Virus record (IMG/VR): IMGVR_UViG_3300010155_000028
Location: 1 to 36,652 of that record
Length of the DNA: 36,652 nt
Source of the DNA: a virus
Direction: 5' to 3' (one strand)
Positions 270 through 35,980 of the stretch are shown here, piece after piece; within the stretch, counting starts at the first letter, position 1, and every line of letters begins with the position of its first letter. The notes below the pieces were generated by a model. It worked only from the letters and a program-made list of their open reading frames with translations, was not told the origin of the DNA and made no database searches. The position numbers and the translations under genes are program-made.

Positions 270-923
270 TTATTTTCTAGTATAAACTATACAAGCTCCA
301 GTGGTAAGAGTGATATCTGTTACAGCTAAATAAACTGTCATCCCCTTAGGGAGTTTAACATCCTCAGCTCCAGTTGTAGCAAACATATCTGTATTACCAT
401 CTACATGTTTAGTGATTTCTAATGCTGACGCTCCTGATACAGCAAACTTAGGCTGAAAAAGGTTAGAATCATTACTAGAATTATCATCAACAACTATAGT
501 TAACGTAGCTGTTGTTAATCCAGAACCATTATCACTTATAGTTACAGCTGAACCAGCTAATGCAGCGGAAATTGATATAGCTAGTTTAACTGTATTCGCA
601 GTGGCGTTAATTATATAGTATATCTGGTTATCAAAAAATCCAGTAGGTAAGGTAGCTCCATTTGCTTTAAGTAAAACCTTATCTCCAGTTTTAAATGTAT
701 GTGCAGTCAATGTAAGAGTTTCGTCTCCATGTGTTGCTGATTCTATGTAGTCAGAACTACCTGTAGTAACTACAAAAGGAAATGTATTTAGGTCAAATTG
801 AGAAAACACACAGTCTTCTAAAGCTTGAACAGCAAACCCTCTAATATTAGAACAAGCGTCTCCATCATGCATTAATAAAGTGGGTCCCCCCATTCCTAAC
901 GCTAAATAATCTGTTTGATTCAT
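270..923 (-). CDS. Small structural protein with an FCCH-like beta module (217 aa)
   Basis: The protein is 217 aa and lacks membrane segments. Residues about 58-140 form a repeat-like beta module: a Thr/Leu-rich strand, an AHTFKTGDKVLL turn, a LPTGFFDNQIYYIINAT segment and then TVKLAISISAALAG. This pattern (aHgl..GD.v.....g.lP.g......Yyvi) is familiar from phage tail and fibre proteins and resembles the FCCH-type domain. The C-terminal part (residues 140-217) is another small beta-rich region ending TTGACIVYTRK. Start ATG 921-923 lies 25 bases from a TATATTTG -7 element, giving a short A-rich leader. It follows the giant ejection gene and precedes the partial gene at the edge. A virion decoration or fibre-base protein is likely; the exact role is unknown. 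The plus-strand gene at 35981 carries a similar module. Confidence 0.8.
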   Translation of the reverse strand: MNQTDYLALGMGGPTLLMHDGDACSNIRGFAVQALEDCVFSQFDLNTFPFVVTTGSSDYIESATHGDETLTLTAHTFKTGDKVLLKANGATLPTGFFDNQIYYIINATANTVKLAISISAALAGSAVTISDNGSGLTTATLTIVVDDNSSNDSNLFQPKFAVSGASALEITKHVDGNTDMFATTGAEDVKLPKGMTVYLAVTDITLTTGACIVYTRK

Positions 924-999: not shown

Positions 1000-3900
1000 T
1001 CACTCTAAATATATATCTTTAGGAGCGTCATCTTTATCTTCTAAAATTATTTCTTCAGAAGGTACATATAAATCTTCTAAATATATTTTTTCTAAAGAAT
1101 CGTTATCAATAAAGTACATTCCATTTTCATCAGTTAATATTATATCTCCAGTTATATCGTCAAAATAGTCGTATTGAGGGAAATCTTGATGTGGAATAAC
1201 TCTATATTCCCACACTTTATCTTCATATGTTCTTTCATTATCACCTCCATAGATTTCTTCTATTGATTTTCCTCTGTGTGATTTTTCCCAATCAATCAAC
1301 CATTGTTTCAATTCATCAACTGTTATTTTACGATTCTCAAACAGTTTCTTTTGTTCTACATATTCTGGAGTATCATGATACATTCCAAATGGTAATGGAG
1401 GGTTAAATGCAGGACTAAAACGATGTGATGGTTCTCCATAATTTATATCTAAAAAGTCAATATGCTCTTGCCATTCCTTTCTATCAAGACTAAACATATC
1501 TCCCACTTCATTTAAGTATTGGTCAATATGTTTTTGGAATGGAATCTGAGAACCACTTCCAAACAGAAATATTAATTTCTGAGCATCATTAATCATAGAT
1601 AATAATCTAAGTTCATCTCTATATTTATCAAATCCATCATGTAATAATTCATCACCTTTAACTGTAAGTCCTGATTCCAGTTTTACACCCTCATTTTCTC
1701 CAAAAAATGTTTGACCAGTACCTTCATACCAAGTCCAGAAACTCTCTGGGGCTGTGTTTACAAGTTGTTCATAAGCAAGCATTATATGAGGCATAGAACT
1801 CGCTAGAATATCTTCCTTGGTTTCCCCAACCTTACTATACATACCAGATTCATAAATATCTGTAGGTATTTCTCCTAGTTCTTCTATATCCGCCCAATTC
1901 ATTGTAAGGTTCATAGTAACTTCCGTTAATAGATTTGATGCTTTTGAATACCTTGTAGTTCCTAAGAACATAGCATTACCTATTATATGTTTTGTAATAT
2001 TTTCTCTATTAAATACTCTATTCAGATTGGTAAAATAATCGTGCTCTAATTCTTTTAATTTTGTATATAATTCCTCTTCATGAAGATGTTCCCCTTTAAA
2101 TCTAAAATTAGTAACAGGTACTACTGTACCATCCTCTAATGTTATATACTCCCCTTCTTCCCCATGTGTTTCTAATAAAGCTTGTCTTTTTGCTATATAA
2201 TCATATGTTAAAAACTCTGCACTAACTCCCATACTGTATCCTGCACCAGCTGTAAATATTGTTGACATTTGTTTTATACCTTCAGCTCTTTCTCTTGGAG
2301 TGGACTCTGCTCTAGTTAAAAGATTCATTCCTCTTGAGAACATTAAAGATTCTAGATGACCAAAAGAAGACATATATGTTAACATAGGAGCTATTTTAGG
2401 ATTATCAGTAATCTTAACTTGATTCCATACTGTATTACCACCAGGAATTTGTATATGTGTTCTACCATCAAATTTAAGAGATATATTTTTATATTGAGCT
2501 GTCGTTCTATCAGCAATAGAAGCGGCGTCTAATATTTCTCTTCTAAATCTATCAGAATATTCTGAATTAGTATTAAACTCTCTGTCATTAAATCTTTCTC
2601 CTGTTATTTTAAAGAACTCCGTTTTGAATGATGGCATATAAACTAGATTCATTGTCATCCTGTCTACCATACCTAATCCATAATTACTAGCTGATTGCAT
2701 CCAATTATGTTTCCCAAATAAATCTTTACTAAATTCCATATTATGTCTAGTAAATTTATGTATTGTAGGGGAGTTAGTTAAATGCTGAAGTTTAGTAGCT
2801 GTAGTTTCTAAATTTGATATTCCTGTTTCTTTAAATGTACCCGCACTACCTCCACCATAAAATATAGAACTTGGAATATTTATAAGTTTTCTAAGTCTAC
2901 TTCTTTGTTTATCATGAACAACTCCTAACATATCATACCATTCTGTAGGAGTTGTTTTTACACCAGCAGTTATAACCCTATATGTTTCTATTGGTAATTC
3001 TACAGCAAATCTACCTAATCTAAATAACTTAAGAGCATATGTTCCTCCCATAGTATTTTTAAGCATCTTTTGGAGCTTGCTATTTTTAGGCATAAATAAT
3101 TGAAGTTCTGTAGCATTTTGCATTCTTAATCTAATAGCATCATACCATGTATGATATTTAGCATCAGAAGAAGAATATTTAGATTCTGTTATTAATTTTC
3201 CAACATCTTTTATCTTCTGACTTAAATAAAAATCTCTATTAACTTCATATATTGTATTTCTCATTATTATTGAAGCATCAAACTCATAAGCTGCTATCTG
3301 ATTAGAAGTTCTATTTATACCTCTACTAGACTTAGTTGTTGTTCCAGTGGTATAATGATTATCAATCCAAGTAGAATTGTTTTGAATAATTACTTCTAAG
3401 TTCTTGCCTTTTAAATATCTAGGGAAATAATTATCAATTGGAGTAAAACTTTCTCCATTTAACTCATTAGCGAATTTTTGTTTAGCTTGTAAATCTTTAT
3501 CCATTATCTCTCTAAAAGTATTCATCATTTTAGTCATCTTAGCTGGCATCTGTTTTATTGCTTTATCAATATCTATATGCTCTACGCCATCAATATATTT
3601 CTTTGGTAAACTTTTATATATAGAACGAAGTTGAGTAAGCTCAAACTCACCTCTAGTCCAATCTTCTCTATATTTATTAGTTAATGCTTCAGTCTCTAGA
3701 ATTGTTTTTAACACATTGACTCCATCAATACCATTTCTTTCTATTTGCATCATAATAACACCAAGCTTCATATTTCTATATTTTCTTCCTATCCTATCTA
3801 ATTTAGTTTTAGATGATTTATCCCAAGATTCAATTGTCTCATTAATATCTAACACAAGAGCAGAATGAGCTCTATTTAATGGAGATATTATAGATTTATC

Positions 3901-6900
3901 TATTATACCAGATTTTTCTATTCCTAAATAATGACTAAGTAATGAGTTAGGTCTAATACTTAATCTTGTATTTATCTTTTCGTCAAGCAAAGGGACACCA
4001 AATATTCTACCAGACCTTAAGTCAAATCCTGTTTCAATTTGTTCAGTTAATTCTGGAGCTCTTCTTTGAATCATAGATTTACTAACTAAGTCTCCTAAAC
4101 CTTGAACAGGGATATATCCATTTGCTACATCCATAGCTGCAGTATATAAATCTTCTATATATGTAACATCATTTTTAAATTCAGCATCTAAAAGTTCTGT
4201 TATTAAATCTCTTTCATATTTAGACATCTTAGATAAATCTATACTAGAGAAAATATCTAAAGACATCTTATGTTTATCCATATTATATTTTAACATCTTA
4301 CCAGATAACTCTCTACTAATCTCAGTATTAACAATATCTAATAATTCATAATAAGATTTATAATCTCTAACTATTGTATGACCTCCCTTACCATCAGAAA
4401 CCTCAATATCAAACTTACCATTATCAAGAGAACGATTTATATTTCTTATGAGATTATCAACTTTATTCATCATTGTTCGTACACCATTTGGAGAATCAAT
4501 ATTATCAACATCAATTTCTCCTTTGAGTAACTCGCTATACATACCTTCTACATCTTTAGATAATTCCTCTATACTTTTATATTTAGGTTCAGATTTCTCT
4601 ATTTTTTCTATAGAAGAGTTTATAGAATTAGTAAGTTCTTTTAATTGCTCAGGATTCATTTCAGCAACATTTTTTCTATCTAATTTAGATAATGTTTCAG
4701 AAATATCTTTTAATACTTCTATATCTTTAATTTTATTTAAATCTATATCTAAGAAATCTCTAACAGCATTTGATTGATTAGTATAAATACCATTATTTAA
4801 TTTATTTTGTACACTTTTCTTTATTGTATTAGAAGAGTTTATAATAGTTTGTCTATTATTTCTTTCTATAGCATCATAAGTGGCTTCTACAACATTATCA
4901 AAATCTCTTTCTGTAGTAGCTGACGCAGCTTGTTTTAATAAACTTCTACTAATAGCAGAATCTTTTATACCAGAAGACTCTATATATTGAGCTAAAGATT
5001 TATTTAAATTCTTAATATAATCTACAGACTCCTTATCTAAATCTTGTTTTATTTTTGTTTTAAAAGATTCTTTTTTAGTTATTATATCAACATCTTTATA
5101 AGATATATGAACGGGCACTCCATACATTGTATCTTTTCGTTCCTCAAAATTTTCTTTATATTTTCTATATGCTGATTTGAGAGCTTTCTTAAAAGCTTCC
5201 TCATTTTTATATTCATGCACATTTGTTCCGTAGCCGTCTGCTGCTCTAGTATATTTATAAAATATTCTTTTATTATTCTTTATACTTGACTGAAATTTTA
5301 TCTCCCTGCCGTCATCTCCTCCCGTAGTAAAAGTATAAGTATTTGGGTCTATTTTTTTTGTTGAAACAATAACATCTTTTAAAGAAAGTTCAGCCATTTT
5401 AGTAGCTTCAAGTATCATTGCTTGTCTTTGTGGCTCTGTAGCGTTTTTATATTCCTTAGTACTTTTAATATAATCAATAGCTGCCTTAATAGTTAAATCT
5501 TTAATATCTTTATTTTCAAGAGACTTATCTTTCTTACTTGTTTCCAAAGTTGTATTAATAATATTTTTAGTATTTCTAAATACTTTATCACCACCTTCAA
5601 CCTCTCCAAATATATTTTCTTCTACATCTTGTTTACTTTTATCTACATCTATTTTTGTTTCTACTTTTACCTCTGTAGGTACATCTTTTCCTATAATTTT
5701 ATAATCACCATAATATCCTTTCTCAATCATTTCTGAATACATATCAACCTCTGATTGTTTTTGAGATATTAATTCTTGAGAAGCTTTTTCATTTTTTAGT
5801 TTATTTAATTCTAATATTAAATTATCTTTCTCTTTTATTACTTCCTCTAAATTAACTGTCAATTTATCTTTATGTATCTCACCCTTTTGATTGTTTTTAT
5901 CCAAAATCTCTGACTCTAATTCCTGAAATTGTTTTTCTAAAGCATCTATATTTTTCTGTATCTTCTTTTTCTGGAATATCTTTGTTGCCCCTAGCTTATC
6001 TTTTGCTTCTTGTAAAGATTTTATTTGTTGTTCTATAGTTATTTGTTTATCATTAATTTCCTCTATCTCCTCATTAATTTTAAATAATTTATCTTCAGTC
6101 GGTTTATCAAGTTTATTTGGAGTTACTTTTAATTGAATCTTCTTACCTTCAGGAGTGGTGACAACTTGCTCTTTAATAGCCCCTGGTGTTTCTCCAACAG
6201 CCATTTTGTCAGCTATATTTTTTATAAATAAAGCTGTCTCATTTGTAGTTTCAAATTTATAATCTATACCCAACTTATCCATTAATGTATTTAATATTTT
6301 TCTAATATTATTAAAACTTTTTTCTTGTATAGGCTCTAATTCAATTTCCCCACTAATAAGTTGAGATAAAAATTCTACAACTAATTCTTTTTTACCTTCA
6401 GCTTTTGTATATACATCTTTGCCTGTTATATCTTTTGTTTTTATAAACTCTGAAATATTTCTAAATTTTCCAATTTCAAGAATCCATTTTTCAACTTGAT
6501 TTTCTACTTCTTGATATTTAGTTGGGTTAGATTTTTCTAGAATATCTACAAATGGATGGCCAATCTGTTCGTGTATAGCTACTGTAGCATCCATATTTTT
6601 AGCATTAAAATATGCTTTTCCTTCATGCACAAATCCAGAAACTGTTTCTGGGTCTATCTTTAATCCTAACTCTTTTATTAAATTACCCCAACTTTCATTA
6701 TCTGTATAAATCTTTACCTTCATATCAGGAGAAAGACTTTGCATAAGATTAAATTGAGTTTTAATTGATTGTAAAGCATTAGTCATTCTACTACTTCCAG
6801 ATTGATTTATTAATTTATCTATAATCTCTACTGTCTCTACATCAATAATATTATCCACTATTCTGTCTGTTATAGCAGTTTTATTATTAATTAATTTAAT

Positions 6901-9900
6901 TTTATTACCAATTTTTATAGCGTCATATCCATTTGCTACAAGATATCTATTTAAAGGTTCCATCTCTTGTATCTTTTCTAATGCATTTTTATGTATAGAT
7001 ACTTTATTACTATCTTGTGTTTTTTCAAATATAGAAGTAAGAAATTGAGATTTTAAATATTCAATTCCCTCTATAGTATTCTTGAAATCCTTTGAGACTT
7101 CTAATACTCTCTCTATAGATAAATTAATACTAACAGACTTACCAGGACCACCAATCTCATATACTCCAGGAGTTTCTGTCATAGTCGCAGATGTCTTTAA
7201 TATATTATTACCTTCTTCAACTAGTTCTAAATACTTATCATTTATTTTTTTATCTTGTAACTCTATATTGGTCTCTACCTCACTTATATCTTGCTTAGCT
7301 ATTTCTCCTGATTTTTTTTCAATCTCTTTTTCTGTAGGATTATAATTAGGGTCATTTTTTTCTTCTCTAATACTATTTATAACCTTATTTTCAAGTTCTC
7401 CCTCAACTTTTTTTATTTTTTCTGATTTTAACTTTGACCTAGATTTAGCAGCTTCAATAATATAATTTGATAATTTAAGCATGCTTTCACCTTTACTTGA
7501 CTTATGTATAAGTTCATAAGAACTAGAAGCTTGTAAATCAGATAAGTCTAATAAAGTTTTATGTGAAACTCCTTCCATTTTTAGAATATCATTAATTTCT
7601 TTTGCGTTAAGAATTTGGCTATTAATAATCTCTTTAGCTGCATCTAACTTAGCGTCTCTATCTGCATTTACAGACCAAGAGTTATAATCAGACTTATTTT
7701 TAAAATCAAAAGTACCTATCTCTTGACCTTTATGATTAAAAACTTTAATAAAAAATTTACCATCAACTTCTTTAAGTTCTCCAAATTCACTCGCTATACC
7801 ATCTAAAACATCCTCACTATATCTAGCCATTCCATTAGAATAAAGGAAATGAGCATCAAGTTTTAAAGACATACTGTTAAGTATATCAGCAGATTTCATA
7901 GCTTTATTATAAGCATCTCCACCTTTCTTTTTATAAATACCATCAACATCAAGATAAAGTTGTTTTAACATTTTATAAACATCTTGTGATGTTTTTATTT
8001 TATTAACAGCTTCTTCGGGGATATTATGACTTCTTAAATGCTCTTTAAATGACCATACCTCACCATCTCCTATTTTAAATGTATGTTTTCCTGAGTTTTC
8101 AACAAATTTAGCTGCCTTAGCATCATTAAGAGAATATACTTTAGTTGAATATGAAGCTATTTTAGATTTTGTTTTTAATCCACCAATAACAAACATATTT
8201 GATAGAAATTGAGATTTATAGTGTAATATTTTAGCATCACTCTCACTTATCTTTTCTCCAAATTCATTTTCATAAGCTTCCATAACAGCCTTAATCTCTT
8301 CATCAGAAGCTAATCCATGACTAAGTGTAAATCCAGTAACCTCTGCCGTATAAAACCCACCAGATACAATTTTTTGTTTTAACCAAGTTGATACAGTCTT
8401 CTCCCCTGATTGAATACCCTGGTATTTTAAATTTGCATTTATAGTACTATTACGACCTCCCATCCATGATAAAGACCATCCCATAACTGCTCCACGAGCT
8501 GTTTCTTCTAATAATTGTCCATATTCTACATCCCACCATTCACCTCCAGCTGTTGATAGTTGTTGATTTACAAAATCCATACTTACCATATATAAGGAAA
8601 GATTAGCTGCTCCAACATAATTTTTTGCCACCTGAGCTTTCTTTATATTTATAGCTCTAACTACCATTTGTGTAGCTTGACTTCTAGTGTATCCTCCAAC
8701 AACAAGCCTTTCTATAGCTACAGCAGAATTACGTAGCATAGCTAATTTCATAGACCCCTTAATAGCCCATCCACCTACATATAATGTAGGGTCAAATACA
8801 ATAGATAGAAGAGCCATAGTATTTCTTTCCCAACCTTCATATTCAACTGTATTATCTAAATTAATCTGCTTACCACTAACCCATCTATATACTCTACCCA
8901 TAAGACTTTGGTCTAGAGACTCCAGAAAAAGCTTCTTTGTAACTCTATCCTCTATACCAAATACTTTCCAAGCTTTCTGCTGTATCTTATTATTTAATGA
9001 CGTAAGAACTACTTCGTATTTTGTATTTGGTCTAAGTTCTCCTGTATCTGGGTTCCACACTATATAATGTCTTTTATCTACATAATCAATTAACTCATTT
9101 TCATCCAAACCTAGCTGTAATCCTATCTGTATTGTAGTAATAGCTTCTTTCGTAGCAGTTTCAAATAACTCTATAGGATATTGATTAGGTTCATCATAAA
9201 CATCAATTTCATTAAATTCATCTAATACATCTGTAAATAATTCATCTCTAATCTCTGCAAATTCATCACTTTCTGACCACCATTTATATAATAATTTATT
9301 ATATATAGCTCCATCTATATAGTCTTCTGAATATAGTTCTTTTTCCACTAAATCTGAATTTTGAACCACCTCTTCAATAGCTATTAAAAACATATCTGCA
9401 GCAGTTCTATACTTATAAGAAGTATTAGAATAACCCTCCCTTACACTAGTTGTAGTATGTGATTGTACATACCTTTCTCCATCCCATTTCCATTCTTTTT
9501 TTATTTTATTAAACTCATCAACACATTGATTATACATATTACCACCATCAACACCTTGAGTTTTTATTATTTCCTCTCCCATCAAAGAATATAATTCTTT
9601 ATATATTGTACCTACATTATATTGAAGAGTATTTGCATTATAAGTAATTAAATTCATTCCTGCAAACTCTGATAAATCTTTTACTATCTGTTCAGACGCT
9701 TCACCTATTTGATAATCTCCCATATATCCCATCCCATGAACATTTTTAGGAACATTTTGTTTAGAACTACTTCCAACTTCTGGAAAATAATCTTTATTAC
9801 TTAATTGTTTAGCAGCATTTCTTAATAATATATTTTTATGCTTGTCTAATTTATACATCCTATTCTTAGCTATTTCATTTATAACTCCCATATCAGCGTT

Positions 9901-12900
9901 ATCCCTAAACCATGTAAATAACTTTTTTGGGGAAGGAGCCATAATCTTTCCAAATTCACTCGTAAAATCTTCTCGTAACAGAGTTGCTTCGGGATATTTA
10001 TACCAATAATACTCCAGAGCTGCATCATATAACTCATTCGTTTCATCTCCGTATTTTTCTCCAAACAAATCACTATTTTTAAATGTAGATTTAGCCATTT
10101 TTCCTCCTCTTATTTCTGTTTTCCCCAGATACTCATCTAATAATATATCAGGTAACCCTAATCCTTTTCCTTCAGATTTAGATTTCTTTCCGTAATTATC
10201 CTCTTCAATACCTCTAACCCAATCTTCTAAAAGTCCATTTGTATAGGCATTTTTCTTATACAACATCTTGTCAATATAATTTTTTATTTTTACTGAAACT
10301 TCTTTATTAACTTCTAAATCTACATTATGATTTTCTTTTAAAATATCTACTATATAACTTTCAATTTCTTCATAATCTGTATGCTCTACGCCATCAATAG
10401 AAATTGATTTCTCCCATAAACTATTTGGAATCATGGTTAATTCTTCTGGCCAAAGAATATTTTTAAATTCATTATTATTATGTTCACCTATATTAAGTTT
10501 CTTTACTAGCCCAGACCATGGTAAGGATGTTTCCTTTTCAAAATAAGCTTCCAAATGCATTGGTGCTATTTTATTTTGATACCAACTTAATGAAGCAAGA
10601 GCTTTATCTTTTTCCTTTTCATTATCTTTATAATAAACATCTATAGATTCTTTTATACCTCCTAATATTGACGATGGAAGTTCCAGTTGATAAATTATAG
10701 CATCTAACTCTTGACTTATACCAAAAACAATCCCATCTTTAGTGCTATAAACAGACTTCATTATACCATCAACTTCTTGATATACCCCTGCTAATTCACC
10801 TTTGTCTTCACCTGGTATTTCTGTAGATGTATAATTTTTTGGTATTCTACCATATTGTGAGAATAGATAATTATTATATAAAGTACCACCTCTAAATGTT
10901 GTTAAAAACTGATTAGTATTAGTACGATATTTAGGATTACCTCCTAATATTTTCTTTATACCATCCTTATCAAAATTATCACCATCCATATACTCTATTG
11001 TTCGTAAAAATTCTTGCGTAGGATTTACATTAGTTTCCCAATCTTTAAGTTGGTCACTCACCTTTAATTGAGCCATAAGAGCTATATTAACATAATGACC
11101 TATAAAAGCTGGATGAGCACGTCTACCTTCTTTACCTTTGATAACTGCATCTCCAAAACCAGCATTTACCATAGCTTTCTTTATTATTTTAGCACTTCTA
11201 TTACTATTAATTAAAGTTCCATCTTTATTTTCAACTGTATATCTATATAATATTGTTTCTTTTATCTTTTCTTTATTTATTACGTATTTTCCTCCTTGTT
11301 CTATTTTATCAAATAATAATTGTGTTTCTTCAGTAAACGACCTATCTGACCATATGCCAATTTGAACATCAAACCCTGCTTCACTAGAAAGAAATTCTGA
11401 ATTTTCTTCTTTACTAATAGTTGGGCCAAATACCTCAGACACATCTGTAAGATACAAACCATGTCCCCAGTGGTCATTTTGTAAATAACTAAATATAGCT
11501 TTAAAAACTTCATATTCTATAGAAAAGTTCGGATAGTCTTTTCTTATCTCTTTAAAAAGAGGACTAAGTTTTAACATATCTATAGTCTCTTGATGTTCCT
11601 TCATATTTTGAAGAACTAAAGGAAATAGTTTTGTTCTCTCTAGAAAATCTTCATGACGCATCCATGTTTGGGTTTTCCCAGCTTGCAATTCTGAACCTCC
11701 AAATTTTAACTCTCTAGCAAGGATACTACTATTCCATATAGGAACTCCTCCACCTCCCTGAAGATTTTCTCCTCCAATAAGTAAATCAACGTATCCTACA
11801 GTTTCTAAATTAGATATATCAATACTATAATTACCATCTCTATATTTTGTTATAAACCCTAAATGAGTTTCTCCTCGGCCGTATAACATAGACCCCATTG
11901 GATATTGATAAACCTTCTCTTTACCAACTTTTTTTAAATTTCTATCTTCTGGTAGATTAGTGAAATCAATCCATTCATTATTATTATCATCCCACATATA
12001 TCTAAATACATATTTTTCTAATTCAAGGTTATCTGTATTATGTTGATTTCCATGTTTTATACGATATGGCATATAATTAATCTGAGCCAGTACCGTTGGA
12101 GCATTCTGCATCCAACCAGAAAAATATTGCCCCTTCGTGAGGTCTACGCTCCCAACCTTAATTACTTCTTGTCTTTTTTTATCCCATCGTTTATGTTTTT
12201 TAGTATTTGGAAGATAAGGATTTTCTGAATAATATGAATCCTCAAATGTACGGTGTTTATTTTTTAAACGTTGATTATATTTATCATAATAACTTCCTTC
12301 TTTTATTGGGACTAAAGTAAAGTACTTATCATTCTTTTTTACTAAATTTCCATTTACATCATAATTAAATCTAACTTTATAAGGAGCATTAAGACTTTTA
12401 CCATAATTAATAAGAATAACACCTCCTTCTTCCCCAAGGTTCTCTTTTAGATATTCAGCAGTCTCAAAAATACTCATATTACTCCCCTTTATGTATCCAT
12501 CATGAAGTCCTTGTAAAACTTCTTCTATAGTATTAAACCTTTTACCTGATATTACTTGGTAACCTTCCATCCTTGTTTGGTCTATTGTTATTAAAAGTGG
12601 TTCAGGGTCAGTATCATCTTCTATTATATCAGTGGTAGATGGTTGTGATATTAATTTTGTATTTTTATTAATATTAGAAGATACATAAGCTTGTATTTCA
12701 CTATTTCCACCAGCTGTTAAAAGAGCGTCATCTATTGATAAAGCTGGATTAAATGATAAAGCATTACTAATATCAAATTCAACAGACCCTGTACCTCCTT
12801 CAGAGTTTTGTTTTATCTTTTCTTTTTCTTTTTCATCTATTAAATAATCATATGCTTCTTGATTAAATAATTGGTCTTGTTTATCTTCATTAGGGAGAGC

Positions 12901-14646
12901 CCATTTGTTATCAATATACTTCTGAGCATGATTTAATTCTGATTCAGAGAATCCATGTTCTTCTAATCCCACTCCTTTTATATCTTCTTCCTCCTCTTCC
13001 TCCATTCTAAATCTATTAAGATATTCTCCTATTTCAAGATTTAATCCTCCTGGTACAGTTTTAAAAAACTCTTCTTTATTTATCTTACCATCTCTAACAT
13101 CTGCAAGTAATTTTCTAGCAGTTCCATGTCCAATAAAATGTTCTATTCCTAATAAATCTGTAAATGAAAGTTCTAATTCTTTAATTTGTTCTGAATATTT
13201 TTTTTCTAAAGCTTTAGCCATAAATGTATATCTACCTGGCTCATCTTCAAGCATATAATCCATTAATCCTTCTTGAGCTTCTTCATTACCAATAAATTCT
13301 TCTTTAGAATTAACTCCAAATTTAGATTTTAATATATCTTTATGTACACTATATAAAAATTGATAAGGACCTACAGCAGAAGATGTAGGATTAGTTAAAG
13401 AATAATCCATTCTTCCACTAGCTTCAACTTCATTAATACCTATTCTAAATTCTTCCGCATCAAATTCAAATTCCTCAACTTCCTTCACTTCTTCTTCTGT
13501 TTTCCAACTACCTTCACCAAATGCTATGGCAGCATCTTTATCATCTCCAAATTCAAATACTTCATTACGTTTTAAAGCTTCTTGATAAGATTTTTTATGG
13601 TCATACTCTATCCAATCATTAGGATTTGATGTTGGATTATCTGGGTCTTTAGGAAATAATGTAGGAAAAGAATACCATTTTTTAGCATCTTCACCTTCTA
13701 ATCCAAGAGCTTCACCAATCTCTGTACCCATAATTACTGTTGAACTTTCACTATCCCCTTCTTTATATCCTTCTAGTAAAGTATTATCTCTTGAAACAGG
13801 CCTTATATCTACAACTTTTTTATTATATAATTCAATTTTTTCATCTTCTTCTTTTATAAGAAGTAAAGCGTCATATGCTTCTTGATTAAATAGTTCGTCT
13901 GGTTTTTCTGTGGTGGGGAGAGCCCAGTTATTAGTAATATATTTCTGGACATGCTCTAATGTAGATAATGAATATTTTTCTATTAATTCTTTAGAAAATT
14001 CATCATCATCTTTAACTACATCTGAAATTATAGATGGTTCTGTAATCTGAGCTCTTGCTTTTTCATTATCATATTCTTTACTTTCTTTGAAAATAGAGCG
14101 GGCTTCTGATTTTAAGTTTTCTAATCCATCTAAAAGAGAAGACTCTTCTAATTGCTCTTCTTCTGAGAGCTCTTTTTCTTTTTTTTTTAATGTGCTATTT
14201 AGAACTCTATTTTTAGCTGTTTTAAGAATAAATTTATCTCCCTTAAATTCTGGAAATTTTTCTAGTAACTCATCATCATTTAAATGTGGTTTCGCTTCTA
14301 TTGTTAATCTTAAATCTTCAACAACAAAATCAAAATCAAAATCAAAAGTTGATATAGATGATGATACAGATGATGATACAGATTCTTCTCCTTCAGGAGA
14401 TAATGTATTTTGATATTTTTCTTTAAGAAGATTAACCTTTCTCTCATTCTCCTTTTTTTTCTCTTCCTTTCTTAAATCCTTTGATGCTTTAAAATTATCA
14501 GAAACTTTTTGACGATTAAGATTTTCTTCTTCATCAATAATAGGAAGAATTTCTTCTTCAATAACAGGAATAGTTTCTTCAGAACTTTCTTCTGTTTCTT
14601 TTAATTCTAAAATTTCTTCTTCTAATATGTTTTTTTCTAAAGGCAT
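1000..14646 (-). CDS. Giant 4548-aa virion/ejection protein with lytic-transglycosylase-like domain
   Basis: One uninterrupted frame encodes 4548 aa. Visible architecture: an acidic N-terminus (1-100); a 28-residue motif at 232-259 repeated at 573-600 (20 of 28 identical); between them an SLT/muramidase-like region (about 403-550) with NEVEASGR (E406/E408 candidate catalytic Glu) and SSAVGPYQF (422-430); a hydrophobic helical stretch near 1940-1985 that could touch membranes; a zinc-protease-like HEQIGHPF at 2692-2699; a long coiled coil near 2850-2970; and a helical C-terminal third. Size, tail-gene neighbours and the muralytic-like domain fit the giant proteins that phages eject to open a channel and, in polyvalent types, act in the host. 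No DxDGD-type RNA polymerase motif was seen, so a virion polymerase is not supported. It follows the 699-aa gene by 19 bases. Ejection-protein role is inferred; the CDS itself is certain. Confidence 0.9.
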   Translation of the reverse strand: MPLEKNILEEEILELKETEESSEETIPVIEEEILPIIDEEENLNRQKVSDNFKASKDLRKEEKKKENERKVNLLKEKYQNTLSPEGEESVSSSVSSSISTFDFDFDFVVEDLRLTIEAKPHLNDDELLEKFPEFKGDKFILKTAKNRVLNSTLKKKEKELSEEEQLEESSLLDGLENLKSEARSIFKESKEYDNEKARAQITEPSIISDVVKDDDEFSKELIEKYSLSTLEHVQKYITNNWALPTTEKPDELFNQEAYDALLLIKEEDEKIELYNKKVVDIRPVSRDNTLLEGYKEGDSESSTVIMGTEIGEALGLEGEDAKKWYSFPTLFPKDPDNPTSNPNDWIEYDHKKSYQEALKRNEVFEFGDDKDAAIAFGEGSWKTEEEVKEVEEFEFDAEEFRIGINEVEASGRMDYSLTNPTSSAVGPYQFLYSVHKDILKSKFGVNSKEEFIGNEEAQEGLMDYMLEDEPGRYTFMAKALEKKYSEQIKELELSFTDLLGIEHFIGHGTARKLLADVRDGKINKEEFFKTVPGGLNLEIGEYLNRFRMEEEEEEDIKGVGLEEHGFSESELNHAQKYIDNKWALPNEDKQDQLFNQEAYDYLIDEKEKEKIKQNSEGGTGSVEFDISNALSFNPALSIDDALLTAGGNSEIQAYVSSNINKNTKLISQPSTTDIIEDDTDPEPLLITIDQTRMEGYQVISGKRFNTIEEVLQGLHDGYIKGSNMSIFETAEYLKENLGEEGGVILINYGKSLNAPYKVRFNYDVNGNLVKKNDKYFTLVPIKEGSYYDKYNQRLKNKHRTFEDSYYSENPYLPNTKKHKRWDKKRQEVIKVGSVDLTKGQYFSGWMQNAPTVLAQINYMPYRIKHGNQHNTDNLELEKYVFRYMWDDNNNEWIDFTNLPEDRNLKKVGKEKVYQYPMGSMLYGRGETHLGFITKYRDGNYSIDISNLETVGYVDLLIGGENLQGGGGVPIWNSSILARELKFGGSELQAGKTQTWMRHEDFLERTKLFPLVLQNMKEHQETIDMLKLSPLFKEIRKDYPNFSIEYEVFKAIFSYLQNDHWGHGLYLTDVSEVFGPTISKEENSEFLSSEAGFDVQIGIWSDRSFTEETQLLFDKIEQGGKYVINKEKIKETILYRYTVENKDGTLINSNRSAKIIKKAMVNAGFGDAVIKGKEGRRAHPAFIGHYVNIALMAQLKVSDQLKDWETNVNPTQEFLRTIEYMDGDNFDKDGIKKILGGNPKYRTNTNQFLTTFRGGTLYNNYLFSQYGRIPKNYTSTEIPGEDKGELAGVYQEVDGIMKSVYSTKDGIVFGISQELDAIIYQLELPSSILGGIKESIDVYYKDNEKEKDKALASLSWYQNKIAPMHLEAYFEKETSLPWSGLVKKLNIGEHNNNEFKNILWPEELTMIPNSLWEKSISIDGVEHTDYEEIESYIVDILKENHNVDLEVNKEVSVKIKNYIDKMLYKKNAYTNGLLEDWVRGIEEDNYGKKSKSEGKGLGLPDILLDEYLGKTEIRGGKMAKSTFKNSDLFGEKYGDETNELYDAALEYYWYKYPEATLLREDFTSEFGKIMAPSPKKLFTWFRDNADMGVINEIAKNRMYKLDKHKNILLRNAAKQLSNKDYFPEVGSSSKQNVPKNVHGMGYMGDYQIGEASEQIVKDLSEFAGMNLITYNANTLQYNVGTIYKELYSLMGEEIIKTQGVDGGNMYNQCVDEFNKIKKEWKWDGERYVQSHTTTSVREGYSNTSYKYRTAADMFLIAIEEVVQNSDLVEKELYSEDYIDGAIYNKLLYKWWSESDEFAEIRDELFTDVLDEFNEIDVYDEPNQYPIELFETATKEAITTIQIGLQLGLDENELIDYVDKRHYIVWNPDTGELRPNTKYEVVLTSLNNKIQQKAWKVFGIEDRVTKKLFLESLDQSLMGRVYRWVSGKQINLDNTVEYEGWERNTMALLSIVFDPTLYVGGWAIKGSMKLAMLRNSAVAIERLVVGGYTRSQATQMVVRAINIKKAQVAKNYVGAANLSLYMVSMDFVNQQLSTAGGEWWDVEYGQLLEETARGAVMGWSLSWMGGRNSTINANLKYQGIQSGEKTVSTWLKQKIVSGGFYTAEVTGFTLSHGLASDEEIKAVMEAYENEFGEKISESDAKILHYKSQFLSNMFVIGGLKTKSKIASYSTKVYSLNDAKAAKFVENSGKHTFKIGDGEVWSFKEHLRSHNIPEEAVNKIKTSQDVYKMLKQLYLDVDGIYKKKGGDAYNKAMKSADILNSMSLKLDAHFLYSNGMARYSEDVLDGIASEFGELKEVDGKFFIKVFNHKGQEIGTFDFKNKSDYNSWSVNADRDAKLDAAKEIINSQILNAKEINDILKMEGVSHKTLLDLSDLQASSSYELIHKSSKGESMLKLSNYIIEAAKSRSKLKSEKIKKVEGELENKVINSIREEKNDPNYNPTEKEIEKKSGEIAKQDISEVETNIELQDKKINDKYLELVEEGNNILKTSATMTETPGVYEIGGPGKSVSINLSIERVLEVSKDFKNTIEGIEYLKSQFLTSIFEKTQDSNKVSIHKNALEKIQEMEPLNRYLVANGYDAIKIGNKIKLINNKTAITDRIVDNIIDVETVEIIDKLINQSGSSRMTNALQSIKTQFNLMQSLSPDMKVKIYTDNESWGNLIKELGLKIDPETVSGFVHEGKAYFNAKNMDATVAIHEQIGHPFVDILEKSNPTKYQEVENQVEKWILEIGKFRNISEFIKTKDITGKDVYTKAEGKKELVVEFLSQLISGEIELEPIQEKSFNNIRKILNTLMDKLGIDYKFETTNETALFIKNIADKMAVGETPGAIKEQVVTTPEGKKIQLKVTPNKLDKPTEDKLFKINEEIEEINDKQITIEQQIKSLQEAKDKLGATKIFQKKKIQKNIDALEKQFQELESEILDKNNQKGEIHKDKLTVNLEEVIKEKDNLILELNKLKNEKASQELISQKQSEVDMYSEMIEKGYYGDYKIIGKDVPTEVKVETKIDVDKSKQDVEENIFGEVEGGDKVFRNTKNIINTTLETSKKDKSLENKDIKDLTIKAAIDYIKSTKEYKNATEPQRQAMILEATKMAELSLKDVIVSTKKIDPNTYTFTTGGDDGREIKFQSSIKNNKRIFYKYTRAADGYGTNVHEYKNEEAFKKALKSAYRKYKENFEERKDTMYGVPVHISYKDVDIITKKESFKTKIKQDLDKESVDYIKNLNKSLAQYIESSGIKDSAISRSLLKQAASATTERDFDNVVEATYDAIERNNRQTIINSSNTIKKSVQNKLNNGIYTNQSNAVRDFLDIDLNKIKDIEVLKDISETLSKLDRKNVAEMNPEQLKELTNSINSSIEKIEKSEPKYKSIEELSKDVEGMYSELLKGEIDVDNIDSPNGVRTMMNKVDNLIRNINRSLDNGKFDIEVSDGKGGHTIVRDYKSYYELLDIVNTEISRELSGKMLKYNMDKHKMSLDIFSSIDLSKMSKYERDLITELLDAEFKNDVTYIEDLYTAAMDVANGYIPVQGLGDLVSKSMIQRRAPELTEQIETGFDLRSGRIFGVPLLDEKINTRLSIRPNSLLSHYLGIEKSGIIDKSIISPLNRAHSALVLDINETIESWDKSSKTKLDRIGRKYRNMKLGVIMMQIERNGIDGVNVLKTILETEALTNKYREDWTRGEFELTQLRSIYKSLPKKYIDGVEHIDIDKAIKQMPAKMTKMMNTFREIMDKDLQAKQKFANELNGESFTPIDNYFPRYLKGKNLEVIIQNNSTWIDNHYTTGTTTKSSRGINRTSNQIAAYEFDASIIMRNTIYEVNRDFYLSQKIKDVGKLITESKYSSSDAKYHTWYDAIRLRMQNATELQLFMPKNSKLQKMLKNTMGGTYALKLFRLGRFAVELPIETYRVITAGVKTTPTEWYDMLGVVHDKQRSRLRKLINIPSSIFYGGGSAGTFKETGISNLETTATKLQHLTNSPTIHKFTRHNMEFSKDLFGKHNWMQSASNYGLGMVDRMTMNLVYMPSFKTEFFKITGERFNDREFNTNSEYSDRFRREILDAASIADRTTAQYKNISLKFDGRTHIQIPGGNTVWNQVKITDNPKIAPMLTYMSSFGHLESLMFSRGMNLLTRAESTPRERAEGIKQMSTIFTAGAGYSMGVSAEFLTYDYIAKRQALLETHGEEGEYITLEDGTVVPVTNFRFKGEHLHEEELYTKLKELEHDYFTNLNRVFNRENITKHIIGNAMFLGTTRYSKASNLLTEVTMNLTMNWADIEELGEIPTDIYESGMYSKVGETKEDILASSMPHIMLAYEQLVNTAPESFWTWYEGTGQTFFGENEGVKLESGLTVKGDELLHDGFDKYRDELRLLSMINDAQKLIFLFGSGSQIPFQKHIDQYLNEVGDMFSLDRKEWQEHIDFLDINYGEPSHRFSPAFNPPLPFGMYHDTPEYVEQKKLFENRKITVDELKQWLIDWEKSHRGKSIEEIYGGDNERTYEDKVWEYRVIPHQDFPQYDYFDDITGDIILTDENGMYFIDNDSLEKIYLEDLYVPSEEIILEDKDDAPKDIYLE
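12847..12930 (-). repeat. Second copy of the 28-residue motif in the giant protein
   Basis: Codes for residues 573-600 (HAQKYIDNKWALP ... LFNQEAYD). It matches residues 232-259 at 20 of 28 positions with no gap. The copies bracket the SLT-like domain. Confidence 0.8.
13870..13953 (-). repeat. First copy of the 28-residue motif in the giant protein
   Basis: Codes for residues 232-259 (HVQKYITNNWALP ... LFNQEAYD), the partner of the copy at 12847-12930. The DNA has diverged mostly at third positions, so the protein sequence appears to be maintained by selection. Confidence 0.8.
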
Positions 14647-14650: not shown

Positions 14651-14668
14651 TTATTATTATTATTATTA
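14651..14668 (-). repeat. Six tandem TAA triplets at the end of the 699-aa gene
   Basis: Minus-strand reading gives TAA six times in frame. The first is the stop of the 699-aa gene; the others fill the gap before the giant gene's ATG at 14646. It is either a replication-slippage microsatellite or a fail-safe stop and A-rich leader for the giant gene. Confidence 0.85.
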
Positions 14669-16765
14669 TCTAATTCTATTACCTATAATACTTCGTAAAT
14701 AATTTAAACTCTTTCCTCCATCATCTTTTGTTCTCATTTTAAGAAAAGCCATATATGAATCTACATGGGACCCTTTAAAAGGTAAAATAACTTCGTGTTT
14801 TGAGGCAGCTGCCTTTCCAGCAGTCTTATATTGACCAGTTCCATGAAGAAACCATTCATGTTTACTATATGTATCACCATCAACCTCAAGATATGTATAT
14901 GTATTAGTGGCATTATCAAATACAGGGTCTAAATCATACCAGTCTCCATCTATATAAGTTTGAGCACCTGCAGGGATTCTTTCTCCTTTTTTAAGGTCAA
15001 CAGTTATTGTAGTACCAGCAGCATTAACCACATCTATTTCCATATCTCTATCCGCTGTATTAAAAGGAGCTATAAATTCAGGTACAAACATATCAAATTT
15101 TTGTGATTTCTTATTTAGAGAACTCTGCAGTGTATTGCTTGCACCTGTAATTATAAACCCTATTTGGTCATCAGCAGTAACAGGATAACCAGCTTTACCT
15201 CCAGTGGTAGATTCAGTTATTTGAGTGTTGATTCCTGTAGCTAAAGTTACATAACTTACATCTCCTTTATTCGTAATACTTCGTCCAGACTGGACATTAA
15301 ATGGAGTTTGATATGAACTTCCCGCTGTATGTTTATTTAACACATTAACTGTTTCTGGAATGGTTTTTACACTAATATTAGCAGGTTTATGTCTAAATAT
15401 ATCTCTAACTAATTGAGATGTTTCGTCATAATCAACAAAAGGAAGAGCTTTCTTTACAAGTAAATCATCCATAGTAAATTCTGGATGTATTTTTTGCATC
15501 TCTAATAATTCTGCATTTAATTCCTTCATCATTTCAGGTTCAAACCTATGTCCTCTAATAGAGGCCCACATGCCATCTATTACAGATGCTCTATCTGCTT
15601 CTACTTTTGTTGTAAATTGAGTTACATTACCCTCTCCAACTTGCCATTTACCATCTCTTTCAGTAACCACATTTTTTGGAACTATCTTAGACGCAACATC
15701 TTGTATATGTTCTCCTAACAGTGGATTAGCAGTTAGTGATTGATTATGTAATCCTACAACAGTTTCTCCTCCATGTGTTGTTATCTCAAAAGCTCCTTGA
15801 GAGTCATTCCATTTAGTTTCATATTCATCATACTCTGATTTAAGATTATCAAACTCTTCTTCATTTAACAACCCAGCATTAAATCCTGGATTTATTGCTC
15901 CAAACGCATCCGAATATTCACTATAATTTTCATATTGAGTTATATCTCCAGTGGACTCTGTATCAATTCTTGTAGTTTGTTCTGCGATATCAGTCTCTAC
16001 ATCTTGTAAGAACTGTGTTTCAGCATCTTCACTTAAATCTCCCCAATCACCATCTACTCCATCATCATTATCTCCAGAATCACCTAGTTCATAATTATTA
16101 CTTACCAACCATTGCTGTTTTTCTTCAACTGTTTCTAAAGCGTTATAATCATCAAGTTTCATTTGAGACGGAATCCTACTCTTTAATATCTCTTTTTGTT
16201 CTGTTTTTGACTTAGAATAAAATTCAGTTTTTTCCTCTTCAGTCATAGTTAAATCTACTTTTTCATAAGTGGTAGCAGATTTATGGTCATCCCATAAAGG
16301 GCTATCTATAGAAGTTCTACGTCTATTATCATAATATTCATAGTTTGAATGACCACCATAATGTTCTGGGTCACTAGATATTCTTTCACCTATTATTTCA
16401 TCTTCATGTTTTATACCTATAGAACGCTGAACCTCTCCTACAGCAAAAGTTTTTAATCTTGATAATTCCATAGAAGCTTTCCCCCCATCTAATTTAGGAT
16501 TCATAATAGCAGCTGAATTTTTATAAAAATAATCACTAACAGCATTAACTTGACTATTTATATAAGGAACATCAACATCTCTAATTTTAGAAACATCAAT
16601 ATCTTTAAGATTTTTTTCAAACTCAGCTTTCTTTTTTTTCTTTTCTTCTTTTTTCTTCTCTCTTACCTGACCCACATACTTTACTCCTTCAGCAAGTTTA
16701 CTAGTGTCAAAGACCTGAGCTTTACCGTATCCTATTTTTTGTTGTCCTGGGTAGTTTATTGCCAT
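14666..16765 (-). CDS. Probable internal virion (ejection) protein, 699 aa
   Basis: A 699-aa soluble protein. After MAINYPGQQKIGYGKAQVF, residues about 35-55 form a Lys/Glu-rich helix (EKKKEEKKKKKAEFEKNL). Residues about 225-250 are a strongly acidic Asp/Gly linker. The rest is mixed alpha/beta, ending with a basic tail (SIIGNRIR). No catalytic motif or membrane segment is visible. It lies three bases after the 330-aa protein and 19 bases before the giant protein, all in one transcript from the promoter at 18296. In podophages this position, after the tail nozzle and ring genes, holds proteins packed in the head and ejected with the DNA. I do not recognise a family; internal virion protein is inferred from context, charge pattern and size. 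A stabilising neck protein is the alternative. Confidence 0.8.
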   Translation of the reverse strand: MAINYPGQQKIGYGKAQVFDTSKLAEGVKYVGQVREKKKEEKKKKKAEFEKNLKDIDVSKIRDVDVPYINSQVNAVSDYFYKNSAAIMNPKLDGGKASMELSRLKTFAVGEVQRSIGIKHEDEIIGERISSDPEHYGGHSNYEYYDNRRRTSIDSPLWDDHKSATTYEKVDLTMTEEEKTEFYSKSKTEQKEILKSRIPSQMKLDDYNALETVEEKQQWLVSNNYELGDSGDNDDGVDGDWGDLSEDAETQFLQDVETDIAEQTTRIDTESTGDITQYENYSEYSDAFGAINPGFNAGLLNEEEFDNLKSEYDEYETKWNDSQGAFEITTHGGETVVGLHNQSLTANPLLGEHIQDVASKIVPKNVVTERDGKWQVGEGNVTQFTTKVEADRASVIDGMWASIRGHRFEPEMMKELNAELLEMQKIHPEFTMDDLLVKKALPFVDYDETSQLVRDIFRHKPANISVKTIPETVNVLNKHTAGSSYQTPFNVQSGRSITNKGDVSYVTLATGINTQITESTTGGKAGYPVTADDQIGFIITGASNTLQSSLNKKSQKFDMFVPEFIAPFNTADRDMEIDVVNAAGTTITVDLKKGERIPAGAQTYIDGDWYDLDPVFDNATNTYTYLEVDGDTYSKHEWFLHGTGQYKTAGKAAASKHEVILPFKGSHVDSYMAFLKMRTKDDGGKSLNYLRSIIGNRIR

Positions 16766-16768: not shown

Positions 16769-17761
16769 TTAATATTGATTTCTTTTAGACCATCTTCTTC
16801 CAAATCTTTTGCCTCCATATTGACTAGCTAAATCTCCAAAATTAAGTGATTGGTAATCTTCTCCAGGTGTCCTTAAATTTTGATGAATCCAATTAAAAGC
16901 TCCCATATCTCCTGTTTCAACTTTTCTAAACATATCTCTAACTATCTTTTTTTGTGTACTAGAACCTTCGTCTGCCATTGCAAAGTTAATTGTCTGTTGT
17001 TTATATGCTAAAGGAATATCACTAACTCCTTGTCGCGCTTGCGGATTAGTAGTAGCAGCAGCAGCAGTAGTAGTAGTAGTAGGGAGAAGAGCATCAACTT
17101 CTGGAGTATTTGATTTAATTGTTCCAGGATTATTCATTGCGTCAATTTGTTGTTGTCGCAGTCTATTTGCTTCTTGTTGTTGGTTAAATAATGCTTTATC
17201 AGATTGTGAAGATTCATGATGAGCTATTCCTGATTGTAGAGCTCCAGCAGCTGTAGTTAACCCTCCAGCTACATTCTGCATACCAGCTCCCACCTGAGCT
17301 CTAGCGTAATCTAAATCTGCAGAATATTCATTATATTCATGTTCAAATCTTTTATCTCTATAAGAAGCCATAACATTTCTAGCTTCCTGAGCTCTTAAAA
17401 TATTTTTATCTCTAGCAGACACATCTGCTTGTAATAACTGTAAACTAGAACGGTCTTGTTGAGCTTGTATTTGAGAAATCATTCCTAATCCACCTCTTCT
17501 ATCACTACTACTTCTTAAAGCGGTTTGAGCAGCTCTTTGTTGATTATCTAGAAATGCAGATTTCTGCTCATCAGGAAGTCCTTGATAAGCTCTCATTTCT
17601 GCTTCAGACATATTTTTAGCTATTTCAGGAGGTATAGTAAATTCTGGTTTACTACTCAGAGCTGCAATTTCAGCCTCTTTACCTTCCTTTTTTTGTTGGA
17701 TACCTCGATATACCTGTATTCCACCACCTACCACTGCTACACCTGCTGCTACCCACGTCAT
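16769..17761 (-). CDS. Probable internal/ejection protein with hydrophobic N-terminus, 330 aa
   Basis: The protein opens with a Gly/Ala/Val-rich stretch (TWVAAGVAVVGGGIQVY, residues 2-18), long enough to be one membrane-active helix, followed by a basic segment. Residues about 40-200 are Gln/Ala/Arg-rich helix (ISQIQAQQDRSSLQLLQ; LRAQEARNVMASYRDKRFEH). A second Ala/Gly-rich stretch at about 157-180 (VGAGMQNVAGGLTTAAGAL) is moderately hydrophobic. A low-complexity T5A4T2 tract lies near residue 230. The C-terminus is basic (FGRRWSKRN). This make-up resembles small inner-core proteins of podophages (T7 gp14-like in style, not shown by sequence). Its ATG overlaps the TGA of the cupin gene (ATGA), implying coupled translation. 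Role inferred; the coding call is firm. Confidence 0.82.
   Translation of the reverse strand: MTWVAAGVAVVGGGIQVYRGIQQKKEGKEAEIAALSSKPEFTIPPEIAKNMSEAEMRAYQGLPDEQKSAFLDNQQRAAQTALRSSSDRRGGLGMISQIQAQQDRSSLQLLQADVSARDKNILRAQEARNVMASYRDKRFEHEYNEYSADLDYARAQVGAGMQNVAGGLTTAAGALQSGIAHHESSQSDKALFNQQQEANRLRQQQIDAMNNPGTIKSNTPEVDALLPTTTTTAAAATTNPQARQGVSDIPLAYKQQTINFAMADEGSSTQKKIVRDMFRKVETGDMGAFNWIHQNLRTPGEDYQSLNFGDLASQYGGKRFGRRWSKRNQY
17048..17080 (-). repeat. ACT/GCT triplet microsatellite inside the 330-aa gene
   Basis: Eleven in-frame triplets read (ACT)5(GCT)4(ACT)2 on the minus strand and encode T5A4T2. A flexible linker prone to length change by slippage without loss of frame. Confidence 0.85.
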
Positions 17762-28005: not shown

Positions 28006-28032
28006 TTTATTTTATTTTTAATGATATGAATA

Positions 28033-29083: not shown

Positions 29084-30466
29084 TTAAGCTCTTTCAAGTA
29101 AGATGAATCTGTTGTTCGCGAATCCTTCAAATCCTCTTTCTGTTCTGTAGTGACATCTTAACTCATCTACATCAGAAGTAGGATTAGCTAATCCAGCAGA
29201 ACCTGTTAACCAGTGCTCCATTTTTCTAGAGTATCCTCCAGCTTCTTTATATCTAACTCTTAAAGAAGGAATAGACTCTCTAGATTTAGCATCTTTACCT
29301 TTATCTCCAGGAATAACAAGTCCCATTCCAGCATAGTTGTATCCTGAAGCACCCATCATTGGAGAATAACTTAAAGCTTCATATGCTTTCTTATGGAAAG
29401 TATATCCACCTCTTGCGAATGATTTAAATCCGAAAGCAACTCCTATTTCCTCAGAACCATTAAATGCTCCATAAGAAATACCTCCACCAGCAAACATTGC
29501 AGCAACTGCATCGTCAATAGCTAATGATAAGTCAATTCCACACCACATAGTGTTTTCTTTAGCTCCTCTGTTAGCATCTAGTGTACGAATCATAGAATCA
29601 AAATCAGATAAGTTAAACCCAGCTAATTGATTATAAGTCTGTGAATTACCACTTCTCATAAAGTCAATTAAACCTTCAGTACCATTAATACCACCAGTCT
29701 GTGTAGTATAACTTAATGGCTGTATAGCAGCATTCGTGTTAGTAACAACTTGACCTAATAACATTTGAGTTTCACAATAGTTATTAAATCTTTTGTAGGT
29801 ATCACCTTCACCTTTTAAGTACCATAGGTATCCAGATTTTCCAGTTGCAGCGTCATTCACTTTAAACCATATTTTATTAGTAGCTTCAGAACCAGTTACC
29901 TGGAATGAATCTTTCATAATCATAGTATAGTTCTCATAGTGATTAGCCGTTGGAGTGATACCATCTGGTTGACCAGTACCTTCTTCCCACTCATTACCAA
30001 TTATAATTAATACATCCGCAGCAGTTAAAGCTGTCCATGATGAATTTTTATAAGGTACTAAAGTAGCTGTATTGTTAGCAGGTCTAGCAGTACAAAGAGC
30101 AATCTCTCCGTAACTATTTTGTACAATATCTCCAACTCTTAAAAAGAAGTTACCAGCAGAGGTACCATCAGAAGAATAAGAATCGTCTAAAGTAATATTT
30201 GGAGACCCAGCAGTGGTAATAGTAGGTGTCCCAGTTTGTTTGAAGTTTTGGTGTAAATAATCATCTTCATAGTGTTCATATTTTCTTTGAGAAACAGGAG
30301 CCATAGCTCCAACTGCATCTAAGAATCCCATTAGGGATTGTTCTCCGTATCTATTAACAAAGTCTTCAGCAATTTCTGGTTTGTGAATACTAAGCGTAGA
30401 AACGTAATTTTCGCTTGTAGCGACCTGGAAAGCACTAGGAATCCCAGGTGTAGTAGTATAAGGCAT
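29084..30466 (-). CDS. Probable major capsid protein, 460 aa
   Basis: The length, acidic scaffold-like gene upstream, terminase-portal order and strong terminator downstream all match a tailed-phage capsid gene. The protein starts MPYTTTPGIPSAFQVATS, then a helical/charged arm (ENYVSTLSIHKPEIAEDFV, GEQSLMGFLDAVGAMAPV). After that comes a beta-rich core with SNPNIT-type turns, an AVAAMFAGGGISYGAFNG loop, a GGYTFHKKAYEALSYSPM segment and a C-terminal HYRTERGFEGFANNRFILL. There is no delta-domain cleavage signature I can assign; scaffolding is a separate gene. An HK97 fold is expected for all tailed-phage capsids but is not read directly here. The call rests mainly on synteny. Confidence 0.82.
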   Translation of the reverse strand: MPYTTTPGIPSAFQVATSENYVSTLSIHKPEIAEDFVNRYGEQSLMGFLDAVGAMAPVSQRKYEHYEDDYLHQNFKQTGTPTITTAGSPNITLDDSYSSDGTSAGNFFLRVGDIVQNSYGEIALCTARPANNTATLVPYKNSSWTALTAADVLIIIGNEWEEGTGQPDGITPTANHYENYTMIMKDSFQVTGSEATNKIWFKVNDAATGKSGYLWYLKGEGDTYKRFNNYCETQMLLGQVVTNTNAAIQPLSYTTQTGGINGTEGLIDFMRSGNSQTYNQLAGFNLSDFDSMIRTLDANRGAKENTMWCGIDLSLAIDDAVAAMFAGGGISYGAFNGSEEIGVAFGFKSFARGGYTFHKKAYEALSYSPMMGASGYNYAGMGLVIPGDKGKDAKSRESIPSLRVRYKEAGGYSRKMEHWLTGSAGLANPTSDVDELRCHYRTERGFEGFANNRFILLERA

Positions 30467-35877: not shown

Positions 35878-35893
35878 ATTTAATTTAATAATA

Positions 35894-35925
35894 CAAATAT
35901 AGTAAATTATTAGGAATTTACCCAG
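35894..35925 (-). promoter_or_regulatory. Bacteroidota-type promoter of terL
   Basis: Minus-strand TATATTTG at 35894-35901. The -33 region is imperfect: TCTG with N21 spacing at 35922-35925. It gives a short leader to ATG at 35877 and fixes that start. It overlaps the divergent promoter upstream. Confidence 0.6.
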
Positions 35926-35941
35926 AATATAATTATATTTG
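35911..35941 (+). promoter_or_regulatory. Bacteroidota-type promoter of the rightward gene
   Basis: Plus-strand TATATTTG at 35934-35941; TAG (35911-35913, TTAG with the base before) lies 20 bases upstream as in the promoter at 948. It lies 40 bases before ATG 35981. Its upstream part shares bases with the terL promoter. Confidence 0.6.
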
Positions 35942-35980
35942 TACAACAATCAATCTTTTAATAATTAAAAAAATAAACAA

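Follow-up and report, generated by a model that had tools for sequence, protein, structure and literature searches.

The window analysed here, the whole of a linear virus record of 36,652 bases, carries real-looking genes from position 2 to 35949, all on the minus strand. Their transcription order begins with the terminase large subunit (TerL), the portal, a 333-aa protein, a capsid-type protein, a 295-aa protein and a Hoc-like decoration protein, continues with several virion proteins, a 1453-aa virion protein (phrog_14478) and a 172-aa short-tail-fibre-type protein, and ends with a 330-aa protein, a 699-aa protein and a giant open reading frame (ORF), after which come two short ORFs. The principal genes are:

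33847..35949, minus strand: terminase large subunit (phrog_6681, E 6.3e-149)
31562..33847, minus strand: portal protein (phrog_6547, E 2.4e-132)
29084..30466, minus strand: probable major capsid protein (phrog_13704, E 1.4e-62; phrog_11589 major head protein, E 0.0013)
16769..17761, minus strand: 330-aa protein in the gp14 position, homologous to the phi38:1 gp99/elemo gp20 family
14666..16765, minus strand: 699-aa protein, assigned to the gp15 position by its place
1000..14646, minus strand: giant ORF of 4548 aa plus stop, with an ATG start; probable gp16-position polyvalent ejection protein

Among these, TerL is listed with a TTG start that probably lies too far upstream; residue 25 is an in-frame ATG and would make a more usual start. 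AT-rich stretches at 28005-28051 and 31514-31543 resemble one at about 35867-35911 (minus) at 81-90%, and may be copies of one promoter or leader element placed ahead of TerL and other virion genes.

The initial annotation had described a single uninterrupted 4548-aa frame at 1000-14646 and gave no strand; the strand is minus, and the plus-strand reading of the same interval is full of stops. With a stop frequency of 0.091, taken from the other five frames, the log10 P of an open run as long as this one is about -188, and no open run in those frames exceeds 131 codons, which excludes a chance ORF. The frame is further borne out by its codon-position GC (0.43/0.30/0.15), which is even along the gene and similar in neighbouring genes, and by homologous segments in independent contigs that keep the same reading frame. 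Relatives share large parts of the protein at 30-58% identity.

When the whole protein was scanned against Pfam, PHROGs and NCBIfam, no model passed its threshold; the top Pfam match, Y_Y_Y at aa 469-496, was below cut-off. Searches for related loci with the full giant, the 699-aa protein or aa 633-1789 gave no relatives, nor did tblastn of the giant's C-terminal half against phages yield matches; relatives were reached via TerL instead. TerL and portal group the window phage with Flavobacterium elemo phages, Maribacter phage Panino, Cellulophaga phi38:1/phi13:2-type phages, Tenacibaculum Gundel_1 and the Manatee Spring genome ctfjg026, with crAss-like phages further off. Calle and Gundel have podovirus morphology (PMC8776804).

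Across this group the slot at the end of the virion operon is conserved. The order TerL, portal, capsid, structural proteins, a ~300-aa protein, a ~500-700-aa protein and a giant repeats in Elemovirus, in Pervagoviridae/Pachyviridae and in marine contigs, and the sole exception among the relatives examined is Gundel_1, whose large structural gene gp074 lies directly before TerL. The last gene is large in elemo (gp18, 3694 aa), ctfjg026 (3859 aa), phi38:1 (gp101, 1691 aa), phi19:3 (gp129, 1871 aa) and Panino (CDS0069, 1829 aa), while in phi46:3 two genes fill the slot, gp120 (1439 aa) and after it gp121 (626 aa). Complete giants of marine contigs, found through TerL with one recovered through the C-terminal core, measure 3015 (G007), 2904 (G035), 3056 (G014), 2952 (G031), 3019 (G024) and 2478 aa (G032), the window giant being the longest seen. 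Directly before the giant, relatives encode a protein of ~200-340 aa and then one of ~400-700 aa, an order that the window keeps with 330, 699 and 4548 aa. The 330-aa protein matches the phi38:1 gp99/elemo gp20/Panino family by hhalign (E 1e-7; reversed control 0.55).

This three-gene order matches gp14-gp15-gp16 in the T7 record, an order described for podophage ejection proteins (PMC8954989). Like the giant, T7 gp16 (1318 aa) is the last and largest of three adjacent genes, carries a transglycosylase in its N-terminal part and has an expected role at the envelope, but the giant is more than three times longer and hhalign detects no similarity between the two. In P22 and Epsilon15, too, the gp16 homologs scarcely resemble T7 gp16 in sequence although the gene order agrees (PMC8954989). 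An N-terminal peptidoglycan hydrolase, which the giant is predicted to have at aa 395-548, is found only in gp16 of the T7 type and is absent from the P22 type. The initial annotation had suggested that a protein of this size bundles jobs that other podophages divide among several core proteins. This was only partly right, because two of the core-protein positions remain separate genes (16769-17761 and 14666-16765), although modules are indeed fused, split and permuted in the lineage. A literal fusion of gp14, gp15 and gp16 in one chain would fit a chain that exceeds the reported range of gp16-like proteins, 609-1337 aa, more than threefold (PMC8954989), but it is contradicted by those two adjoining genes, which are conserved in the closest relatives, and we consider it very unlikely.

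In one cultured relative the product of this slot is a virion protein, since GenBank record KC821612 annotates gp99, gp100 and gp101 of phi40:1 from 'experimental MS/MS proteomics analysis'. The gp101 of phi40:1/phi38:1 (1691 aa, Pervagoviridae) resembles the giant in operon position and in having the homologous neighbour gp99, but differs in that no HEXXH or transglycosylase motif was found in it. Profile comparison detected no sequence homology between the giant and the gp101 lineage, and the presence of the giant in virions is therefore argued from synteny. The GenBank note for phi38:1, 'based on similarity to phi18:1_gp101', was set aside, as a gene 101 fits poorly in phi18:1, described as a 39.2-kb phage (PMC11946311).

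Alignment to relatives and inspection of the sequence divide the giant as follows:

13861..13953, minus strand: first copy of the direct repeat, aa 232-262, on the upstream side of the transglycosylase domain
13486..13728, minus strand: module aa 307-387, before the transglycosylase here and after it in the giant of contig G007
13003..13464, minus strand: lytic-transglycosylase-like domain, aa 395-548, with invariant E408 at the catalytic position
12838..12930, minus strand: second copy of the direct repeat, aa 573-603, on the downstream side of the transglycosylase domain
9286..12837, minus strand: segment without any match, aa 604-1787, coding by codon statistics; candidate cargo region
8479..9285, minus strand: membrane-prone segment, aa 1788-2056, common to G012, G007 and G035, with a DPTLxxGG motif
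6097..6834, minus strand: zincin-like metallopeptidase domain, aa 2605-2850, with HEQIGH at 6556-6573
5677..6069, minus strand: coiled-coil-like charged stretch, about aa 2860-2990, from sequence inspection and composition
1507..5091, minus strand: conserved helical C-terminal core, aa 3186-4380, from homology to relatives

The elements that had been proposed from the letters of the window could thus be placed: the muralytic-like domain at aa 395-548, the atypical metalloprotease-like motif as HEQIGH at aa 2692-2697, the coiled coil at about aa 2860-2990 and the membrane-prone segment as one borderline hydrophobic stretch, aa 1944-1962, which makes for a weak membrane segment. Of two regions said to have no recognised domain, the first holds for about aa 604-1787, whereas the second, 3000-4400, contains the conserved core at aa 3186-4380.

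The transglycosylase region aligns with segments of G007, G035 and G004 and with a separate 303-aa ORF of G014, the invariant positions being a Glu (E408), G-x-Y-Q and H-x-x-G. In the giant the catalytic-type Glu is followed by an S-S-A-x-G-x-Y/F-Q-F motif, as in phiKZ gp144-like enzymes, and the below-threshold Y_Y_Y match falls inside this domain. By tblastn the region matches a Leptolyngbya phage protein (E 3e-5), which itself matches Pfam Transglycosylas below cut-off, and a six-sequence profile including that protein matches the phiKZ gp144 lytic transglycosylase in two co-linear stretches (E 5.8e-5). Together these matches support aa 395-548 as a predicted lytic transglycosylase with E408 as its catalytic-type residue. 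The domain is bracketed by the two 31-aa direct repeats, which are identical at 21/31 aa and share 77% DNA identity; self-BLAST did not report this internal repeat, which was spotted by eye and then confirmed.

The metallopeptidase motif varies from giant to giant, reading HEQIGH in the window (a HEXXXH variant), HELAGH in G012 and HEVGH in G007 and G035, so that HEXXXH and HEXXH alternate among close relatives with the downstream Glu conserved; E2750, E2754 and E2758, all invariant, fall within the long helix that follows or immediately ahead of it. A profile of the domain matches elemo gp18 over its HEIFH site (E 5e-7; reversed control 0.1), with weaker HExxH sites in ctfjg026, G013 and G024, and the corresponding region of elemo gp18 matches the metallo-protease family phrog_87 (E 1e-4). 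A structural model of middling confidence (pLDDT 62.9) has the element order E-H-E-E-H-H, as in zincins. A search of the PDB with this model returned no significant match, the weak fold matches being 1oz9 and zincins of the lethal-factor/PPEP group (Z 2.5-4.1); Foldseek against BFVD gave better matches among phage proteins, including ART-PolyVal-domain proteins and the Gundel_1 structural protein. We know of no metallopeptidase module in T7 gp16. Unlike the giant's, such a module is not described for that protein in PMC8954989.

Downstream, the core at aa 3186-4380 has 31-33% identity with G007, G035, G012 and G011, and its profile matches that of the G032/G028/elemo core at E 3.4e-16, against 0.07 and 0.12 for reversed controls. 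AlphaFold renders it nearly all helical at pLDDT 43.6, too poor for a fold search. The protein in the same operon position in Flavobacterium phage vB_FspP_elemo (Elemovirus), gp18 ('structural protein, DUF3293'), is accordingly like the giant in its metallopeptidase and its C-terminal core, both detected by profile, and unlike it in that no transglycosylase was found, DUF3293 is present and the chain is about 850 aa shorter; a direct pairwise comparison of the two gave no match.

Between the N-terminal modules and the membrane-prone segment, the ~1,180 residues of aa 604-1787 matched nothing in anything searched, relatives' giants included, and tblastn of aa 561-1790 against plasmids was likewise without matches. 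Such a gap in otherwise mosaic matches is what might be expected of an assembly chimera joining two phage genes in frame. This is extremely improbable given a single frame of uniform codon-position composition, flanks on both sides of aa 604-1787 that match the same relatives in the same order (one module excepted) and giants of 2.4-3.9 kaa that fill the same slot in many independent records.

The combination of domains points to a class already described. Iyer et al. 2017 (PMC5512222) describe phage polyvalent proteins in which a lysozyme stands together with a metallopeptidase (MPTase), the HEXXXH variant among them, and in which the peptidase is proposed to release domains. The giant shares with them a lysozyme-type domain and a HEXXH/HEXXXH metallopeptidase, a long chain, a place among late virion genes and swapped modules, and it joins several unrelated domains (transglycosylase, metallopeptidase and helical core) in one chain. 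It differs in that no recognisable catalytic cargo was identified, and no library model for the polyvalent accessory domains ART, LPD, DdrB-ParB or PBECR matches it. Because this architecture is combined with the gp16 slot, we consider it likely, with good though not complete confidence, that the giant serves a marine podophage of Bacteroidetes as its large ejection protein in the gp16 position and has the build of a phage-type polyvalent protein. The designation of an ejection-type protein in the initial annotation is supported by the same combination of gp14-gp15-gp16 synteny, MS/MS-identified positional equivalents in phi40:1, the transglycosylase and the metallopeptidase. Relatives of 3.7-3.9 kaa are already in GenBank, and the giant is therefore a protein of extreme size but of a known kind.

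From its position, domains and homologies we infer packaging and ejection of the giant, enzymatic activity, self-processing and a cargo role, in the following sequence. The chain would enter the head together with the smaller ejection proteins of ~300 aa and ~700 aa, and would exit by way of the portal before the DNA does. Through E408, its N-terminal transglycosylase would then open the peptidoglycan, and the hydrophobic segment and the helical C-terminal core may help to build or anchor a conduit across the envelope. Finally, the HEXXXH zincin domain would cut the chain, probably its own, to free modules, and the middle region (about aa 604-1787) may bring cargo to the cytoplasm.

Two other readings bear on this scheme. 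The giant could have a structural part alone, as an internal or core protein that acts as a scaffold for the head or portal without ever being delivered, its protease serving maturation and its enzyme-like domains assembly; the MS/MS data show the positional equivalent in phi40:1 as a virion component, ejection is itself inferred, and the metallopeptidase region of the N4 virion RNA polymerase (vRNAP) is needed for encapsidation (PMC5512222). However, transglycosylase domains of podophage virions are associated with entry (PMC8954989), and the swapping of unrelated modules such as DUF3293 and an S-AdoMet-lyase-like domain suits cargo better than a scaffold, which makes this reading unlikely. 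An N4- or crAss-type vRNAP within a polyvalent chain would agree with the size range, with the fusion of N4 vRNAPs to metallopeptidase and lysozyme domains (PMC5512222) and with a terminase related to those of crAss-like phages, but no vRNAP PHROG or Pfam model matches the giant at E up to 10 and its only DxDxD string lies in a low-complexity N-terminal run near aa 102, leaving little probability for a polymerase unless a distant one lies in aa 604-1787.

The modular make-up that favours a delivered polyvalent protein is visible throughout the lineage, in which modules of the giants are fused, split, permuted or swapped, as judged from sequence comparison. The module at aa 307-387 of the window giant changes sides of the transglycosylase in G007, the transglycosylase of G014 is free-standing, and the C-terminal region of Panino, one gene, corresponds to the end of phi46:3 gp120 plus gp121, two genes. 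Panino CDS0069 (L010 13229-18718), which matches gp120+gp121, is labelled 'tRNA methyltransferase' yet sits in the giant ejection-protein slot, and the label is probably a misnomer. DUF3293 lies inside elemo gp18 (L012 2852-13933) at aa 1323-1392 (E 1e-12), and an S-AdoMet-lyase-like stretch inside the G024 giant (L126) at aa 2023-2094 (E 0.001, below cut-off); both are possibly anti-restriction cargo. The G035 giant has a weak GNAT-like stretch. Four otherwise dissimilar giants have in common a strongly conserved ~250-aa module (HDFYGHAELGNSFG...GEENAW...HARMFSP.ARRAMTTETRGQNSxVNF), without a Pfam or NCBIfam match, which by its distribution among them is a mobile module:

G024 (L126): ~250-aa module at aa 1682-1980
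G031 (L119): ~250-aa module at aa 1271-1569
G016 (L130): ~250-aa module at aa 1530-1785
G020 (L133), ORF 1334-6541: ~250-aa module at aa 928-1143

For the window giant itself, we suggest only tentatively, and with some doubt, that aa 604-1787 is a delivered effector of a new type freed by the protein's own HEXXXH protease and that the direct repeat marks module-exchange recombination. Proteins of the same operon slot form a graded series of lengths: about 1.4-1.9 kaa in the Cellulophaga phages, 3-4.5 kaa in Elemovirus and marine contigs. With this range of sizes, with fissions, fusions and module swaps that are documented, and with members that can be cultured (Flavobacterium elemo, Cellulophaga phi40:1), the lineage is tractable for testing whether built-in metallopeptidases cut the giants and how swapped modules act once injected.

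Near opposite ends of the window, the ORFs at 270-923 (minus) and 35981-36652 (plus) have a ~74-aa module in common (32% identity, E 2e-7), which within ORF 270-923 matches tail-fibre/baseplate PHROGs.
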